Below, in pieces: positions 42,398 through 53,830 of a stretch of DNA of 64,000 nucleotides (the stretch's first letter is position 1; each line of letters starts with the position of its first letter). Made by a program: the position numbers and the translations under genes. The notes under the pieces are model-generated. The model ran no database searches. It was not told the origin of the DNA and saw nothing but the letters and a program-made list of their open reading frames with translations. Source of the DNA: Lepraria neglecta (taxonomy: Eukaryota > Ascomycota > Lecanoromycetes > Lecanorales > Stereocaulaceae); contig CM065646.1 of the NCBI GenBank assembly GCA_033220425.1, positions 875,501 through 939,500 of the forward strand, in the 5' to 3' direction.

Positions 42398-45300
42398 ATG
42401 AATATTAATACGTGGTCTAGATCCGAGAGCGACCTTGCTATAAACATCCGTAAAGCTACGAGCATAGAGGAGACCGCGCCAAAACGCAAACATGTCCGAG
42501 CATGCATCGTCTACACATGGGACCACAAGTCCTCACAATCTTTCTGGGCGGGCATGAAAGTGCAGCCTATCCTCGCCGACGAAGTCCAAACTTTCAAAGC
42601 TCTCATTACCGTACACAAGGTGCTCCAGGAGGGACATCCGGTATGCGTGAAAGAGGCGCAAGCAAACATCAATTGGCTAGAGAGCTTGACGAGAGGGGTA
42701 TCTGGTGAAGGCCTCCGAGGTATGCATGCAGACCCTGCCAGAAGTGGGTTGAAAGACTAGCGACGCAGGTGTATGGCACAGCAAGCTGATACTGGGTATA
42801 GGCTATGGACCTTTGCTACGGGACTATGTCTATTTCCTTTTAGCGAAGCTAGCCTTCCACAGGCAGCATCCTGAATTCAACGGTATGATTCTTCTCCGAA
42901 GAAATGCGCGCAGCACGAGCTGAGGATTCTTGCAGGTCTTTTCGAATACGAGGAGTATATCAGTCTGAAGTCGATAAATGATCCCAATGAAGGGTGAGCC
43001 ATCCTTTCGAGGCTCTGCGCTGCAGCAGCTGCTGACATCTGGCTAGATATGAGACTATCACAGACCTCATGACCCTCCAGGATCAGATAGACACCTTCCA
43101 GAAGCTCATCTTTGCTCATTTTAGAGGTGGTGCAAACAACGAGTGCAGGATATCGGCACTGGTGCCCCTCGTACAAGAAAGCTATGGCATATACAAATTT
43201 ATTACGAGCATGTTGCGGGCGATGCATACCAGTGAGCCAGCAGTTGCTAGTGCCTATGTATGCGGTACTAACAGGTTATAGCTACTGGCGATGATGAGGT
43301 TCTCGAGCCATTACGGGGAAGATACGACACACAACATTACCGCCTTCTCAAATTCTACTACGAATGCTCCAATCTCCGATATCTGACCAGCTTGATCCAA
43401 GTGCCCAAATTGCCACAAGAACCTCCAAACCTTTTAAGCGAAGATGACGATCGACCTGCCTTGCCCCGTCGACCAACTCGAGAGATCGAGAAAAAGGAAG
43501 AGCCAGCCCCTTCTAAGTCTCCTCCGCCCAGTGCTGCTCCAGATCCAGAACCGATCAACGAGTTCTGGAAGAATGAACAACGGCGACGGCAAGAGGAGTA
43601 CGATGCCGAGCAGCGGAGATTACAGGATCAATGGAACCAAGCACAGTACCAGCAGCAACTGGCGCAGCAACAAGCTGATAGGGATTTCGAGGAGCAGCGC
43701 CGACTACAGGCTGAGCAGCAACGGCTAGCTCAAGAGCAATTGATGCGAGACCAGTTCCAGGCACAAACCCAAGGCCGGATGGCCGAGCTGGAGCGAGAGA
43801 ACCTCAATGCTCGAGCACAGTACGAACGAGATCAGTTGATGCTTGAACAGTATGACCGGAGGATGAAGGACCTGGAAAATCAGCTGAATCAGCTGAATCA
43901 AAATTTCAATCAACAAACTTCTTCGAAGGACGATCAGGTACGGGCGTTACAAGAGCAGGTCAATACTTGGCGGACAAAGTACGAGGCGCTCGCCAAACTC
44001 TACTCCCAGTTACGGCACGAGCATCTTGAGCTGTTGCAGAAGTTCAAAGGTGTCCAATTGAAAGCGGCGTCAGCACAAGAGGCTATTGAGAAGCGTGAGA
44101 AGCTCGAGCGTGAGATCAAGACAAAGAACCTCGAGCTGGCAGACATGATCCGGGAGCGAGACAGGGCTCTGCACGAGAAAGACCGGTTAACAGGCGGCAA
44201 CAGAGAGGAGGTCGAGAAACTCAAGCGAGAGCTTCGGTTTGCGCTTGAGAAAGCAGATAATGCTGAACGAGCCAAGGGCTCGGAATTGTCCTCGATGCTG
44301 GCCAAGTACAACCGAGAGATGGCGGATCTTGAAGAGGCTCTGCGGGTTCGTTACTTGTATTCGTGGATTGCAGGCATCTACTGACCAAGACTTAGAACAA
44401 GACGAGGGCCTTGGATGACACTCATTCGAAGTTCGGCGAGCGAGATGGCGATCTCGAACAAACTTTAAGAGAAAAGGAAGATGAACTTGAGATCACCAAG
44501 TCTGGCCTGGATCAGGCATTGATACAACTCAACGAGCTAAGCATGGTGTGTGAAAGCTGAGCGCTATATTAGGGGCAATCGCTGACTTCTCCAGAACGGT
44601 GGCGACACAGACAAGGCGCTCGACGAACAGATAGACCAAGTACTTCTAAGCAACATCGACAAGATCAACGATATCATTGACTCCGTACTCGAGAGCGGTG
44701 TCCAGCGTGTGGATGACGCTCTTTATGAGCTTGACTCGTCGATGCAGGCTGGAAACCAGAATGCATCTGCACCATACGTTCTATCGCAAATAGAAAAGGC
44801 CTCAGCCAGCACTACTGAGTTCGCCACCGCCTTCAACAACTTCATTGCCGATGGTCCTAACAGTCCTCATGCCGAAATTATTCGCACAGTCAATGTCTTT
44901 GCTGGCTCGATAGCAGACGTCCTCAGCAACACCAAAGGACTTACACGCTTTGCTACAGAGGAAAAGAAAGCTGACCAGCTCATCAACGCTGCTCGCCAGT
45001 CAGCCCAGTCGACGGTTAAATTCTTCCGCAATCTCCAATCCTTCCGCCTTGACAGTCTGAAACCAGAGGCGAGGACAGACGTCGTCATCAATAATATGAA
45101 CGATACCCAAGTAAACCTTCAGAAGCTTTCCAAACTCGCTGATGCCTTCGCTCCTAAGTCTGGGAAAATCACGAACGCAAAGGGCGACCTTGGAGATCTT
45201 GTCGACCAAGAGTTGACCAACGCAGCAAAAGCCATCGATGCTGCCGCAGAACGTCTGAACAAGATGATGAATAAGCCCAGGGAAGGTTACAGTACCTACG

Positions 45301-45899
45301 AACTCCGCATCCACGACAGCATCCTCCAAGCCGCCATAGCCGTCACCAACGCCATAGCACAGCTCATCAAAGCTGCTACAGCGTCACAGCAAGAAATTGT
45401 CAAGGAAGGTCGTGGCTCCTCGTCGCGAAGTGTCTTTTATAAGAAGAACAACCGCTGGACCGAAGGGCTCATCAGCGCTGCAAAAGCTGTTGCTTCCTCG
45501 ACCAACACACTCATTGAAACAGCCGACGGTGTCATAAGTGGCCGAAATAGCCCGGAGCAGCTGATTGTCGCAAGTAACGATGTTGCAGCTTCTACGGCAC
45601 AGCTTGTGGCTGCAAGTAGAGTCAAAGCGAACTTTGGAAGCAAAACGCAAGATCGGCTGGAGGAGGCCAGCAAGGCTGTCGGCAAGGCTTGCAGGAGTCT
45701 GGTCAAGCAGGTTCAGAATATCATCAGCCAGAGGAACAAGGAAGACGGAGAAGATGTGGACTATGGCGCATTGAGTGGGCATGAATTCAAGGTCAGGGAG
45801 ATGGAGCAGCAGGTCGAGATTCTACAGCTGGAGAACAATCTGGCGCAGGCAAGACAGAGGTTGGGTGAGATGAGGAAGATCTCGTATCAAGAAGATTAG
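42398..45899 (+). CDS. SLA2: Sla2/End4/Hip1R cytoskeletal adaptor
   Basis: Seven exons (42398-42719, 42802-42882, 42936-42993, 43047-43231, 43282-44345, 44396-44545, 44595-45899; introns 49-82 nt) encode 1,054 aa, the expected size. The N-terminal ANTH domain (DLAINIRKATS, IVYTWDHKSSQSFWAGMKV) binds PI(4,5)P2. A Gln/Glu-rich coiled coil spans about 350-720, and the C-terminal I/LWEQ (talin-like) domain (about 800-1000, e.g. GLISAAKAVASSTNTLIE) binds actin. It couples endocytic coats to actin. In most Pezizomycotina it marks one side of the mating-type locus, as here. The first ~7 residues (MNINTWS) are unconserved, so the start is slightly uncertain. Confidence 0.93.
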
Positions 45900-46867: not shown

Positions 46868-47740
46868 CTAATCACTAGTGTTGAAGTTGATGAGGTCGGC
46901 CCAGCCAGCGTCGCTGATATCGAAGACGTTGAACTAGTTGTCCATGAAAGGGTCATACGTGAAGGATTGTGTGTCAGGATCGAACTCAATGTTGTTTGGA
47001 TATTCGCAGCCGACACTGTCCTCAGAGGCCGCTAGACTCGATGTATGAGGGTTGTTGGCAGAGGCCTACATGCCTTTGTGGAAATCATCCCTGACCATGT
47101 TATCCGTCAGGATGTGCTTGGTCCTATGACCTTTCGAGTTCAAATTCCAGACTCACACTTACGGCGATGTGCATTGCCAGAACGCTGGATCTCTTCAAGG
47201 TTCCCTCCCATGACAAACTTGGTGTTAGTATATCTATATAAGCACGTTCCACTGCGGCCTTCCTTGTGCAAGATCTACGATCGGCTATCGCTCAGTTGGA
47301 ATCGCCTACGACACGAAACTATAGTTTCCAACATAGTGGTACGCCTCTGATAATAAATGAAGCTTTGCTTGTCTTTGTTATTCAAATTCAAAACAATGAA
47401 TTCATGCAGAAATCCATCGCGACAGATCAGCGCATTACGCTGGTCTGTTTGGGTGAATTTGCCATTGCAGCTACCTCTTAGGCATTACCAGTGATCTCCT
47501 TGATTCGATATGAAAATGAGACTGACAAGCTGCCTCAAGGGACGCATGTATTCGAGATTAAAGGAAGGTGGGGTTTGCTAGCCTCGAAGCAGAAACACAA
47601 GGTACTCTGGCGGTCTCTTGCCTTCCAATTTCAATGGAAGAATTTACGTGCCCTCAGGTCCGCATTGAGAAGACTGATGAAGCCACTGGCATCCATGCTC
47701 CGTAATAACGCCCATGTGTCTTGCAATCTGTAGGACAGAA
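46868..47740 (-). pseudogene. Probable relic of MAT1-1-1 (alpha-domain mating gene)
   Basis: Leftward, 47070-46868 reads SANNPHTSSLAASEDS, FDPDTQSFTYDPFMDN, a TAG (46934-46936, where Gln fits), then FNVFDISDAGWADLINFN and a stop, a coding-like acidic C-terminus of the kind MAT1-1-1 proteins have. Further upstream at about 47715-47530 the same strand reads ASGFISLL, NADLRARKFF, a stop, RDRQSTL and KPHLPLIS, which lines up in order with the second half of an alpha domain. Pieces between are out of frame. Position between SLA2 and MAT1-2-1 fits. The alpha-domain match is weak and was made by eye. Confidence 0.4.
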
Positions 47741-47802: not shown

Positions 47803-48695
47803 CTAGTGGCGGGTATAGGGTTTTTTCACCTTGGGCTCGGAAGAGTCGAAGCGTTCTGATGAGCCTTGTGGAAGAAGACCCAAGCCTTTCATGTGAGAAA
47901 TCGACCGGCGAAGCTCTTGGATGACCTGTTGTTTGACCGCTCGATAGGCGCGAAGGCGAAAGGATTTCACTGCAACTGTAGAGTTTTAGATCAGCCGCCG
48001 TGACGTGAATCTGCGAATCCTTGGAGTTTCCTTACACCAGGCATCTACAACTTCAGCATCAACATTTCCGACTCGCTGGAGGAGATCGCGCTCGTCATCG
48101 TTCGGTACTCTGTGGGCTTTGTAGAAATTCTCGAAGAGACCTTGCGTTTCGATTGTGAGCTCTGGGTCAAGTGGGAAAATTTTGCAAAGTTGAGCTGTAG
48201 TTTTCAAACGCCTGCAAACCATCATAAGCGCAGTCTCAAATCTAGGTGGGTCTCTTACTCTTCGAAGAGCTCACGGACGACACAATGAAGAGCGGTGTTA
48301 CTTTCTTTTGTTGGTTCGCCTCGCATTATGGTTTCAAGAATCTCATTTGCTCTAACTTCGTACTTCTGATACATTGCGTGAAGTCTGACCAACTGCTGAA
48401 CTGGCACTGGACCTCCAGACCGTAAAATCACACGTTGACCCAGTTTGAGGGGCTCAGAGTCCTGATACTTATGCAAAGGCTTTAACACTTTGAACACTTT
48501 GCCGGTCCTTCGGAGCTTGTGCAAACGCTTTCTCAGGTTGCCGATCATTCTGAACTTGTGCAAACGCTTTCTCTCATTGCCCGTCATTGTGAGAGACGCT
48601 GTCTTGCGTATTTTTCTTAGAAGTTTCTTGAGATGGGTTTTCATGCGCTTTCGGGGCGCAAAGAATGTGCCGCTCAGACCTGGTGTAGAAGCCAT
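47803..48695 (-). CDS. Second MAT1-2 gene: homeodomain-like protein
   Basis: Three exons (48695-48259, 48211-48036, 47975-47803; introns 47 and 60 nt) encode 261 aa; an in-frame ATG at 48785 would add 30. Exon 1 is strongly basic with a tandem RKRLHK repeat. Exons 2-3 read LTIETQGLFENFYKAHR, VPNDDERDLLQRVGN, then VVDAW/F across the second intron and AVKSFRLRAYRAVKQQ. This follows a homeodomain: L16/F20 in helix 1, a hydrophobic helix 2 and WF in helix 3 followed by basic residues, with one extra residue in a loop. The invariant Asn51 is Val and Arg53 is Ser. It lies head to head with MAT1-2-1, 484 bp apart. Accessory genes are known beside MAT1-2-1 in Leotiomycetes; I cannot equate it with a named one. 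Confidence 0.65.
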
Positions 48696-49179
48696 GGGAG
48701 TTGTGTTAATTTGAAATGGTGTAAGAATATCGACAATTACGTTAATTCTCTGACCTCGCATTGAGAAGCCATGGGAGTTGTTCATTATGTGATCTTGGAA
48801 CTTGAAGGATTATGGTTGTTAATGCCACAGCTCTAACGTACAATCCGTGAAAGAGTCCCGTCGCTTAGTGTGTTGAGATCGTAAACAAAGAAAATGACCA
48901 ACCTCCTCCTTTTCCGGCTAGCGCAAAACATTTCCCCCGAATTTCATTTCACTTCCAACCTTCGTCTCACTTTTCTTCCCACAAACACGAACACCTTCGT
49001 CATTGCGACTGGCTCGCAAGCTCTTTTACAACTAATACTTGCACCTCTATTACATTCTTCTCTGCCCACTTCATTGAACAGCATCGCTGCTACGCTCATT
49101 GTCATCATTCATCTTTTTTAGCCACCCAAGTTCCGAAACCTGACCCGAACCCCGAGACTGCTAAAGTCAAGGAGCAATC
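48696..49179. promoter_or_regulatory. Divergent promoter between the two MAT genes
   Basis: Intergenic control region of the homeodomain-like gene and MAT1-2-1, so the two may be co-regulated. An 18-bp direct repeat (AGAAGCCATGGGAGTTGT) occurs at 48687-48704 and 48764-48781 and spans both candidate start regions of the minus-strand gene. Confidence 0.5.
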
Positions 49180-50466
49180 ATGAACGCAATGACCGCAATC
49201 ATGAACGCTGTCCCAGCTTTACTTCAACGTAATCTGTCTGGCGAAGCTATCATGGATGCGCTCTGGCCAGCGTTTCAGATATGCATCACCTCAGGCGCCA
49301 AGCATGAGATTGACATGCCTATGACCCTCGCAAATGTCGTAGGACAGAAAGGAGTTAATCTCTTGAAAGCTCGCTTTTGGTAAGACCCACACTCTTGAGA
49401 ATGCACCACAATGATGCTTACTCCAATCTAGCAGCCTCATCCAGGCCCCAGTGACAGCCGTGGAGGATTCCGCTCGTGGAGTTATGCTGATCACGCCTTT
49501 ACGCCCCGTTCTTGGACACGAGACTATCATTCCAGGAGTCCAGAAGCCAAAGGCGAAGACTCTCAACCAAGCCAAGGTCGCTCGTCCAGCAAATGCTTTC
49601 ATTCTCTACCGCAAGCATCATCACCCTCAGATCAAAGCCGAACAGCCTAATATCCACAACAATCAGATCTGTAAGCGCTTCTCTAAAACATAGCGTCATG
49701 TATCTGGGCTAACAATGTTGCAGCCGTGATTGTTGGGGAAAGATGGCGCAATGAAGACAATGCTGTCAAAGATCGTTTCGTTGCTTTGGCCAAGCAAATG
49801 AAAGCTAAGCATCTTCTCGAGCATCCGAACTATCATTACAAGCCACGCAAATCAAGTGAGAAGAAGCGTCGAATGACTCGTCGTAAAGAAACTGCGTTTG
49901 TCAACAACATCCTCTCAAGTTCAAAGTCTTCCGTCAAGCCAACCTCCACGGCCCAAGTCTCCGAAGTCCCCAAGACTGCATCTGGCAATGCGATGCTGGA
50001 CCTTGGCAGCGAGGATATTCATCCGAAAACACTCGAAGCTATGCTCATCGAGTACAACAACTCCTTCCCTCCTGCGACCAATCAGGTCACCACTACCTTG
50101 CTCGCTCAGGGTACAATGCCAGTCATCTATGACGAGCTTACGGAAGAAGCGCAAAATGACTCCAACTTCTACCATAGTCAACACGACTTTTCTCCGTTTA
50201 TGACAAGCGAAGAAGCAGGGGTAGAAATGGATTCCTTTCTCGAGGATGTGGATCACTCCGATGGGGTGGCAGCTTCGATGAGCTCCAACGCTCAGATTAC
50301 CGCATTCGATCAGCACAACGAGTCTATTTTCAATGCTGAGGTTACCCGCACGGCCTGGGATTCTATGCCTATGCTCCCTATCTACAACCAAGTCGATGAT
50401 ACCATGTCTCCCATTGGCGAGGCTGGATACATGTCTCCAATTGGCGAGGCTGACTTCGTCAACTAG
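49180..50466 (+). CDS. MAT1-2-1: Mating-type HMG-box protein MAT1-2-1
   Basis: Three exons (49180-49379, 49432-49670, 49724-50466; introns 52 and 53 nt) encode 393 aa. The HMG box (about residues 116-187) reads VARPANAFILYRKHHHPQIK, NIHNNQISVIVGERWRNED and KHLLEHPNYHYKPRKSSEKK. The second intron splits a Ser codon inside the box (ISVIVG), the position conserved in ascomycete MAT1-2-1 genes. The C-terminal part is acidic, with a short duplication (MSPIGEAGYMSPIGEADF) at the end. It is a sequence-specific transcription factor that sets MAT1-2 identity, pheromone response and sexual development. No lesion seen; probably functional. Confidence 0.95.
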
Positions 50467-51547: not shown

Positions 51548-53830
51548 TCAACCATTTGCTGCATTAGGATTCCAGTCGCTGCACCAAATGAAGGTCTGGC
51601 ACCGCCATTGTGTATTCTTCTCCTTCGCTCCTGAGGGACCTAGCGGGCGTGGACACATCCAGAAAGATCTTCCGAGGTTCATACCAGGCTTCTTTGTGAG
51701 AAGCGTGATGCAGGGCTCGTCATGGCCTTCGCATCTGGGCGCAGCTGGCTTTGTGAAAAGTTTCGACCATGACTCCTTGCTTTGGATGGGATCGTGTACA
51801 GTGTCTTGATCCTGCGTCGAAGCACTGCGACTAGTCGGAGAGCTGTTCGCAGTTTGGAGGCCGCTCGTCCCAGAGCTGGTTACTTTTTGGCGTGCTGATC
51901 CGTCCGCAGAACTCAGTGGACTGGCAGTCTCGGTGGGCGTAGCCAGATCGTGCTTGTCTTCTAGACTTTCCGCAACTGGTTCGAGGTCTGCGCCCCGAGT
52001 GACGTCATGGGTGTTAGCTTCTGAGACCACTGGTTCCTCGGCGACGCTGGAATGATTCGAGATGGTATTGGATTTGGGTTTGAAGAATCCCTTGAGACTC
52101 TGCTGGCCCTTGCCAATTGCTGCGGGCGCGGTTGCTGAAGACCCAGACTTGGCGCGTTTCAAAGATTTGCTGGTAGACACTTCGCCCATAGGCCGCTTCG
52201 TGCCTGCTACAGATGGATCATTGGATGAAGCCACAGGCGCGGTGGCAGACAGCGCTTGTGCGCTATCTGCTTTTGTGGAGGTGGTTTCGATCGCGGAGCT
52301 GCCATTGACTGATCCTTTTGCGTCTAAGACCCCAGCGTCTTTGCTGGTGACGTTCGTGCTCTGCGACTGCTGAATCGATGGCTTGCGAGCGAACATGTCG
52401 CGAATGTTCCTTCGGCCAAAGAACTCCGGTATCAGTTTACCTGAAAGTGGTAAAGCGTCGTTGGCTGTGGAGTATTCTCTAAGGCGTTCACCATTGGAGA
52501 ACATTCCTGGAGGATTCATGACATCCTTGGTGTCCTGCTCCTCTCCATCGATGTTTATTTTGTCCTTCATCACTGCATACACGGGGCAATGGTCAGAACC
52601 CTGCTCCCCAGTCAGTCATATCATGAGATGCAAGCAAGCAAGACAATACCATAAGTCCTTCTTGTATATTAGAATCCGAGAACCAATCCTTCATTGTAAG
52701 GCTGCAGAGCACGTAATCGATCCTCGCACCGCAATTGCCAGGCCTCGCATTGACCTTCTGTTCCCAACACGTGAACATGCCCTTTCTGTCAGGATGAAAG
52801 GCGCGGCAGATATCCCACATGACGGGCTCCTCTCTACCCCCATCCCTCTCTCCAAAGACCTTGCCGCCTTCTAGCAGATGGTTGAAGAGTCGTCGGGCAG
52901 GGGTGGAGACAAACTCCAGACCCGTCAAGCCTTGCTTTCGCATTGACGCTTCAGCATTGGCAGCGTCAAGCTCTTCCCTCGATATGTTCAGATCTCCAGT
53001 GAGGAAGACTCTCTTTCCCATCGCAATCAAATTTCGTATACGAGCGTCGAGAACGTCAAGAAAGCCGAGCCGAAAATCGTCTCTTGTTTCGTCGCGGTTC
53101 GCCGGACTGTAGACGCCCAAGAGAACAAAGGCTGGAAACTCAAGAACCACGCACCGACCTTCGGAATCAAGCGTTGTGGCATCGACGGCTGAAGAGGCTA
53201 ACTGTGAAGGCGTCGGATACCCACCGATTTGCTCTTCTTCTGGTAGGTTGGAGAAGCTCGTAGATGAGTTTGGTGGGCAGAGTATTCCTGTGATGCCTTC
53301 TTCCGCGCGAATAGGTGCACAGACCGATTGTCTTGTGTAGATGACAACGCCAGAGTAACCTGTACGCAACAGTCAACAACCTATCAGAGACGTGGAATTC
53401 CTTACTTACCCTTCTTGTGCCGGGGAAGACTGAAACAGCAATCCCATCCTGGAACTAGTACCATATCATCGGAGAGATCCTTTCGTTGAATCTTGGTTTC
53501 TTGGAAGACAACGATATCTGCTTCGAGGATGTCGAACATGGCCTGTTGGCTCAGATTAGATGAGTTTCCCAGAATGGCTATTCTGGAATCCTACTGCGTA
53601 TGAACGTTTGTCTCTCCATGGCTGGTAGGCAAATGGGTTCCTAATCCAAGCTCTTTAGCCAAAATCCTCCCAAGCATGTCTTTATTCTAGAACGAATGAT
53701 CGCAGGGGTGAGAGCCACTCATGTTGAGTGCTTACCGTATGCCATTGACTGCAACAAGAGGTCAGCTAAAGGTTACCAGTGCTTGAATTCAGAGAAGCAT
53801 ACCATTCCAAGTCGTTATACGTAGCCCCAT
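51548..53830 (-). CDS. APN2: AP endonuclease 2 (class II DNA lyase), with a 13-nt microexon
   Basis: Six exons: 53830-53803, 53748-53736 (13 nt), 53640-53595, 53542-53410, 53359-52650 and 52600-51548, giving 660 aa. The EEP nuclease fold starts MGLRITTWN/VNGIR and shows DILEADIVVFQETKIQ (metal-binding Glu), LTGDLNI and, near residue 310, GSDHCPV (catalytic Asp-His). A PCNA-binding box QQSLKGFF lies near 475 and a C-terminal GRF zinc finger (CEGHDEPC...WRCQTF) from about 598. It repairs abasic sites and 3' blocks. The short early exons are typical of this gene. It marks the other flank of the mating-type locus. Confidence 0.93.

Follow-up and report, generated by a model that had tools for sequence, protein, structure and literature searches.

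Many secondary mating-type (MAT) proteins of filamentous ascomycetes have no recognisable domains, yet mature fruiting structures cannot form without some of them (PMC9602353, accessible part). MAT1-2-10 (formerly MAT1-2-4) of Botrytis and Sclerotinia is described, in the accessible parts of the sources, as a gene of unknown function with no reported domain. It is the second gene at MAT1-2 in Botrytis cinerea, where SLA2 and APN2 flank the locus; upon its deletion stipes form and the apothecial disk is blocked, the Sclerotinia mutant instead produces delayed and aberrant apothecia, and MAT1-2-10 has been proposed to act together with MAT1-1-5 as a possibly dimeric regulator (PMC5821092, accessible part). 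In Pseudogymnoascus, MAT1-2-1 is adjoined by MAT1-2-5, presented in the accessible text as an unknown gene without a known domain (PMC4169168), and its 3' end is common to MAT1-1-1 (PMC4438637, accessible part). In some lichen fungi, MAT1-2 auxiliary genes encode a homeodomain leucine-zipper domain (pfam11569; PMC6414310, accessible part); the lichen gene was named MAT1-2-14 and, according to the accessible part of the source, has no homologue outside Lecanoromycetes (PMC10512270).

We analysed a stretch of 64,000 nucleotides of the Lepraria neglecta genome, hereafter the window, which contains an accessory gene next to MAT1-2-1. An earlier note on this DNA proposed that the gene encodes a homeodomain-like protein, that no homeodomain had been assigned at MAT loci of filamentous ascomycetes, and that pairing HMG and homeodomain regulators in one idiomorph would be a new combination. 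The lichen auxiliary genes contradict the second statement, and the pairing had already appeared in print for lichen fungi (PMC6414310, accessible part). This was the paper that we found on a homeodomain-type domain at filamentous ascomycete MAT1-2 loci; none was found for Leotiomycetes, and the word homeodomain is absent from the accessible part of a Leotiomycete survey (PMC10569646). The new part would be a homeodomain-type accessory gene in this lineage, together with a link between families. We regard the gene as a promising lead rather than as a system of a new kind.

Compared by description and place, the Lepraria gene resembles MAT1-2-10 in its position at the locus and its small introns, and differs from it in exon lengths. 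It resembles MAT1-2-5 in adjoining MAT1-2-1, but the MAT1-1-1-like stretch is separate from the gene here. Compared by description with MAT1-2-14, it likewise adjoins the MAT1-2 gene; however, MAT1-2-14 sits between MAT1-2 and APN2, whereas the Lepraria gene is on the SLA2 side and has no match to PF11569.

The MAT1-2 locus and its accessory gene

In a Pfam scan of the window, SLA2 and APN2 domains flank MAT1-2-1 and the accessory gene (Table 1). The latter has three exons, is conserved, and is transcribed divergently from MAT1-2-1; the region between the two is probably a shared promoter region. Across the 11 contigs of the genome (42.0 Mb), the accessory protein matches this locus only. The accessory gene is presumably idiomorph-specific. 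A search of the genome for an alpha box gave no match, and its control likewise had no match anywhere.

Table 1. Features of the MAT1-2 locus in the window (positions count from the first letter of the window)
Feature	Position	Strand	Remarks
SLA2, 3' exon	44586..45899	+	I/LWEQ E 2.3e-65, talin IBS2B
Exon 3	47803..47975	-	remaining helix 3 ([FL]A[VM]KSFRLRAYR); C-terminus ends KPYTRH
Homeodomain-like region	47941..48180	-	aa 157-216 = homeodomain positions 1-60; split by intron 2; below Pfam cut-off
Intron 2	47976..48035	-	60 nt, GTAAGG...CTACAG; TAA in frame in the window
Exon 2	48036..48211	-	homeodomain-like helices 1 and 2 and beginning of helix 3; ends with W and the T of a split codon
Intron 1	48212..48258	-	47 nt, GTAAGA...TTTGCAG
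Exon 1	48259..48695	-	basic N-terminus, then conserved block QDxEPLKLGQRxVLRS...VRxxFEE
Intergenic region of the two divergent genes	48696..49179	.	484 nt
Alternative upstream ATG, in frame	48783..48785	-	+30 aa; conserved in P0001
MAT1-2-1, HMG-box gene	49180..50466	+	PF00505 E 2e-22
MAT1-2-1 intron, inside HMG box	49671-49723		
APN2 part, two ORFs	51548..53372	-	Exo_endo_phos E 1.6e-9, over cut-off; GRF zinc ribbon E 0.0007, below cut-off

Nine database proteins, P0001 to P0009, match the accessory protein (37-93% identity). They were obtained in three protein searches, which yielded 4 of 660 candidates, 1 new one of 137 and 4 new ones of 7989 scored, and were compared as protein sequences. 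P0002 and P0004, each on a contig of length 6406, are probably one gene. No relative was confirmed in the viral and prokaryote contigs that were scanned. An alignment with six relatives shows conservation of QDxEPLKLGQRxVLRS...GEPT...VRxxFEE in exon 1, in which EPLK begins at residue 81 (position 48455); this N-terminal block, EPLKLGQR...FEE, has no known relatives. In exons 2 and 3, AQLCKIFPL, PNDDERD, VDAE.VDAW, KSFRLRAYR and KPYTRH are conserved. Within exon 1, a 39-bp tandem duplication (48499-48576, 82% identical) encodes repeated basic units, RKRLHK.

The gene model of the earlier note, with three exons and a 261-residue product starting at ATG 48695, is borne out by the sequence and the relatives, and the gene itself is more than a chance reading frame. 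Both introns have a GTAAG donor and a CAG acceptor. The donor of intron 1 is supported by five of the six relatives that cover exon 1 (P0001, P0002, P0006, P0007 and P0008), which end with FEE exactly there: GAAGA followed by GTAAG reads E-E-stop. The sixth, P0009, reads IEE and continues. Intron 2 is supported by P0005, in which the frame changes within the intron and exon 3 is recognisable in another frame, as an indel in a true intron would look. A second acceptor for intron 2 lies six bases further (last intron base 47970), and its use replaces W-F-A-V-K by W-L-K. Judging from their protein translations, P0003 to P0005 appear to lack it: at this place P0003 and P0004 read T-V-A-M and P0005 reads S-C-I in another frame, neither of which leaves an AG. 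The protein may also start at ATG 48785, which would extend it to 291 residues. An 18-bp exact direct repeat (48687-48704 and 48764-48781) has one copy over the proposed ATG and the other just inside the upstream ATG.

Between SLA2 and the accessory gene, and downstream of the latter, the stretch 46868-47101 on the minus strand reads EFDPDTQSFTYDPFMDN, stop, FNVFDISDAGWADLINFNTSD, stop, with the stops in frame. It has no match in the Pfam scan, and looks like a decayed remnant of the 3' end of MAT1-1-1.

A homeodomain-like region in exons 2 and 3

The homeodomain family (PF00046, curated cut-off 22.9 bits) is the only Pfam family matched by P0003 (E 0.015), P0004 (E 0.018) and the exon 2-3 piece of the window (E 0.063, 13.5 bits), all below the cut-off. 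The best score (15.8 bits, E 0.012) was obtained for P0004 with intron 2 joined out, again as its sole Pfam match. P0003 and P0004 outscore the window, and all these matches, including both versions of P0004, have one common register. Altogether, four of the eight scanned sequences that contain the region match PF00046, two of the four being versions of P0004. The full 261-residue product has no Pfam match at E<=10, and P0005 has no Pfam match.

In phmmer searches of the PDB with the region, homeodomains made up 4/6 of the matches of P0004, 4/6 of those of P0003 and 3/9 of those of the window, as well as 2/8 for the three-sequence profile and 1/9 for the full product. Counted here as homeodomains are 2da2, which is listed as alpha-fetoprotein enhancer binding protein, and the part of 3d1n (POU class 6) that the match covers. 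A homeodomain consensus run against the PDB matched only 167 of 177,635 sequences at E<=0.001 (best 60 of the 167 listed). The top PDB match was TFIIIC tau131, which is not a homeodomain, for the full product (E 0.2), the three-row profile (0.054), P0004 (0.086) and the window (0.012); of the five PDB searches that included the region, only the one with P0003 did not rank tau131 above the homeodomains. We regard the tau131 likeness as due to chance, with a Tyr where the Trp is expected; it still counts against the homeodomain reading. Other candidates were rejected: DUF7175 was matched by the isoform that uses the alternative acceptor (E 0.073 and 0.029), otherwise not, and by no relative, and the matches to FTO_CTD, Suf, YnhH-like, DUF3320, H2TH, designed helical proteins and ribosomal S13 were weak, mostly in exon 1 and inconsistent among the relatives.

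With PF11569 (Homez), an exon-by-exon scan of the genome gave five sub-threshold matches, none of them at the accessory locus. The family is also absent from the Pfam lists of the spliced sequences, in which filters can drop weak matches. Canonical homeodomains are matched over the cut-off by four exons in the genome (L001-L004), the accessory locus not among them. All four matches stop in helix 3, at the end of WFQNR or a few positions short of it, ahead of the W, and an intron inside helix 3 seems common in the homeobox genes of this genome. The position of the helix-3 intron in the accessory gene differs slightly from that in L001-L004.

Measured against canonical homeodomains, including yeast MATa1, the region agrees in register, helix spacing and most core positions (F/L8, L/F16, Y20, P26, E30-R31, L34, V40, V45, W48 and F/L49), with W48 present in all four sequences that cover it. 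At core position 38 the window has Gly, as does P0005, and P0003 and P0004 have Leu. The earlier note had read Leu and Phe at positions 16 and 20 of helix 1, but that pair lies one residue earlier and requires a gap; the ungapped Pfam register has Phe16 and Tyr20 in the window, and Leu and Tyr in P0003 and P0004. As had been claimed, the WF pair of helix 3 exists only after removal of intron 2: Trp204 is followed by Phe205, whose codon is split across the splice as T and TT. The pair is not conserved: the window has it and P0005 probably has the Phe, but P0003 and P0004 would have WL, as deduced from their proteins by a matching splice. The replacement of the invariant Asn51 and Arg53 is likewise confirmed, by Val in the window or Met at position 51 and by Ser at position 53. 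The region further differs from canonical homeodomains in lacking the basic N-terminal arm, which is replaced by IFPLDPEL or IFPLEPGF. Helix 3 is still basic.

Structure modelling was performed with the read-through version of P0003, whose helix 3 includes some 20 residues encoded by the intron, and gave models of low confidence from the single sequence (pLDDT 46) and from a four-row alignment (pLDDT 46.8; helices 25-38, 42-52 and 57-75). With F23 set as position 8, the helices of the low-confidence model coincide with helices 1, 2 and 3 of a canonical homeodomain. In a Foldseek search with this low-confidence model, 6 of the 11 weak matches were homeodomain chains (best E 4.0, rmsd ~8-10 Å). 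VIA-align of 34 Foldseek chains returned 13 rows with no homeodomain among them, a result that by the tool's own note excludes nothing. In the structure and Pfam check that the earlier note had suggested, the helix boundaries fit, at a pLDDT of 46-47 that is too low to decide for or against the fold, and the full product has no Pfam match.

We compared the match with chance in several ways. A small homeodomain model, made of homeodomain sequences and four exons of the L. neglecta genome, gave scores that were reached by 366 (window), 35 (P0004) and 104 (P0003) of 50,000 shuffles; for exon 2 of P0005 alone the number was 1303 (0.026), and for the alternative-acceptor isoform 3181. With an ungapped profile, 640 (window), 98 (P0004) and 420 (P0003) of 100,000 shuffles reached the score, all three sequences peaking at one offset, and 66 of 100,000 column shuffles reached the family mean. 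Two of 486 ORFs in the window score above the spliced candidate. Profile-profile comparison by hhalign aligned 42 columns without a gap (P 0.0015; score reached by 2/600 column shuffles), with a probability of 17% by the program's own estimate and P 0.09 for the reversed sequence. Overall the shuffle tests lie at ~0.0007-0.007, except for exon 2 of P0005 (0.026). From the window alone, the domain signal above chance is suggestive but weak.

Possible origin and role of the accessory protein

We hypothesize that the gene encodes an accessory regulator at MAT1-2 whose degenerate homeodomain serves protein contacts, a reading to which we assign a probability of roughly 45%. For exon 2 and the first part of exon 3, a homeodomain is a plausible though unproven reading; it is the most consistent sequence match that we found for the region, and it recurs in relatives. 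Most likely the C-terminal region descends from a homeodomain. Canonical base reading is unlikely because of Val or Met at position 51, Ser at position 53 and the absence of the basic arm, and the region is probably not a sequence-reading homeodomain; the core is largely intact and helix 3 basic, which favours a protein-contact module. HOPX is an animal protein with a homeodomain fold that lacks the DNA-contact residues and works through protein contacts; the parallel is one of functional analogy only. With the fold, partner and role presumed here, the homeodomain-derived region would act as a protein-interaction module and, together with the basic N-terminus and the basic helix 3, would join a MAT regulator complex. 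It might do so late in sexual development, after fertilisation, the role that genetics indicates for MAT1-2-10, which occupies the corresponding place in Botrytis.

A quite different reading, which we consider a serious possibility though short of even odds, is that an all-helical C-terminal segment with no relation to homeodomains, in an orphan accessory MAT protein, matches them by chance or convergence through its charged helices and one Trp. Every score below the Pfam cut-off, the missing Pfam match of the full product, the rank of tau131 in four of five PDB searches, shuffle values of only ~0.0007-0.007 (0.026 for exon 2 of P0005), the 17% of hhalign and the low-confidence structure models all speak for such a segment. 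Against it, one register recurs across relatives, Pfam, PDB phmmer and hhalign, and the predicted turns of the low-confidence model coincide with homeodomain positions. A decaying or mis-spliced gene with no functional product could be read from the in-frame stop in intron 2 and from the alternative acceptor, which would abolish the WF pair; we deem it very improbable, as exon blocks and splice-compatible ends are conserved in relatives of 37-93% identity, with PNDDERD kept in P0003 to P0005, and KSFRLRAYR and KPYTRH kept in the two relatives whose in-frame sequence includes these motifs, P0003 and P0004.

The gene could also be an orthologue of a named gene, either MAT1-2-10 of Botrytis and Sclerotinia or MAT1-2-5 of Pseudogymnoascus, in which case it would be ordinary for its class and any homeodomain likeness would be that gene's; we hold this tentatively, and it is compatible with a degenerate homeodomain. 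The locus and its neighbours are alike, and S. sclerotiorum MAT1-2-4 (282 residues) has two introns of phases 2 and 1, calculated from the printed table, as here (PMC3574095, accessible part). However, the first exon of the S. sclerotiorum gene measures just 170 nt and could not hold the conserved block, the B. cinerea gene is modelled with three introns, the second of them in another phase (same source), and the final ~150 nt of MAT1-2-5 match MAT1-1-1 (PMC4438637, accessible part), whereas here the putative MAT1-1-1-like remnant is located downstream of the accessory gene. By its place the gene is likely the same as MAT1-2-10, although the printed exon lengths of S. sclerotiorum and B. cinerea agree in part only (PMC3574095, accessible part).

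If the degenerate homeodomain is real, a shared homeodomain-like module with a conserved N-terminal block would give secondary MAT proteins a testable biochemistry, namely dimerisation with another MAT protein. It could unite several separately named genes in one family, and could shed light on the way in which homeodomain and HMG regulators came together at mating-type loci or disappeared from them. We speculate further, and regard as unlikely, that the MAT1-2 accessory genes of Leotiomycetes and those of lichen fungi form a single ancient family, and that its eroded homeodomain is a remnant of the mating gene of that type in yeasts and basidiomycetes, retained for contacts with proteins rather than for reading DNA. 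The homeodomain class thought to be missing from the MAT loci of filamentous ascomycetes would then never have been lost.

A 29-nt repeat is present on both sides of MAT1-2-1, at 48883, 50831, 50908 and 50974, with copies 69-79% identical to the reference copy. For Sclerotinia trifoliorum, deletion of MAT1-2 genes via direct repeats is reported in the title of a paper (PMC4891775).
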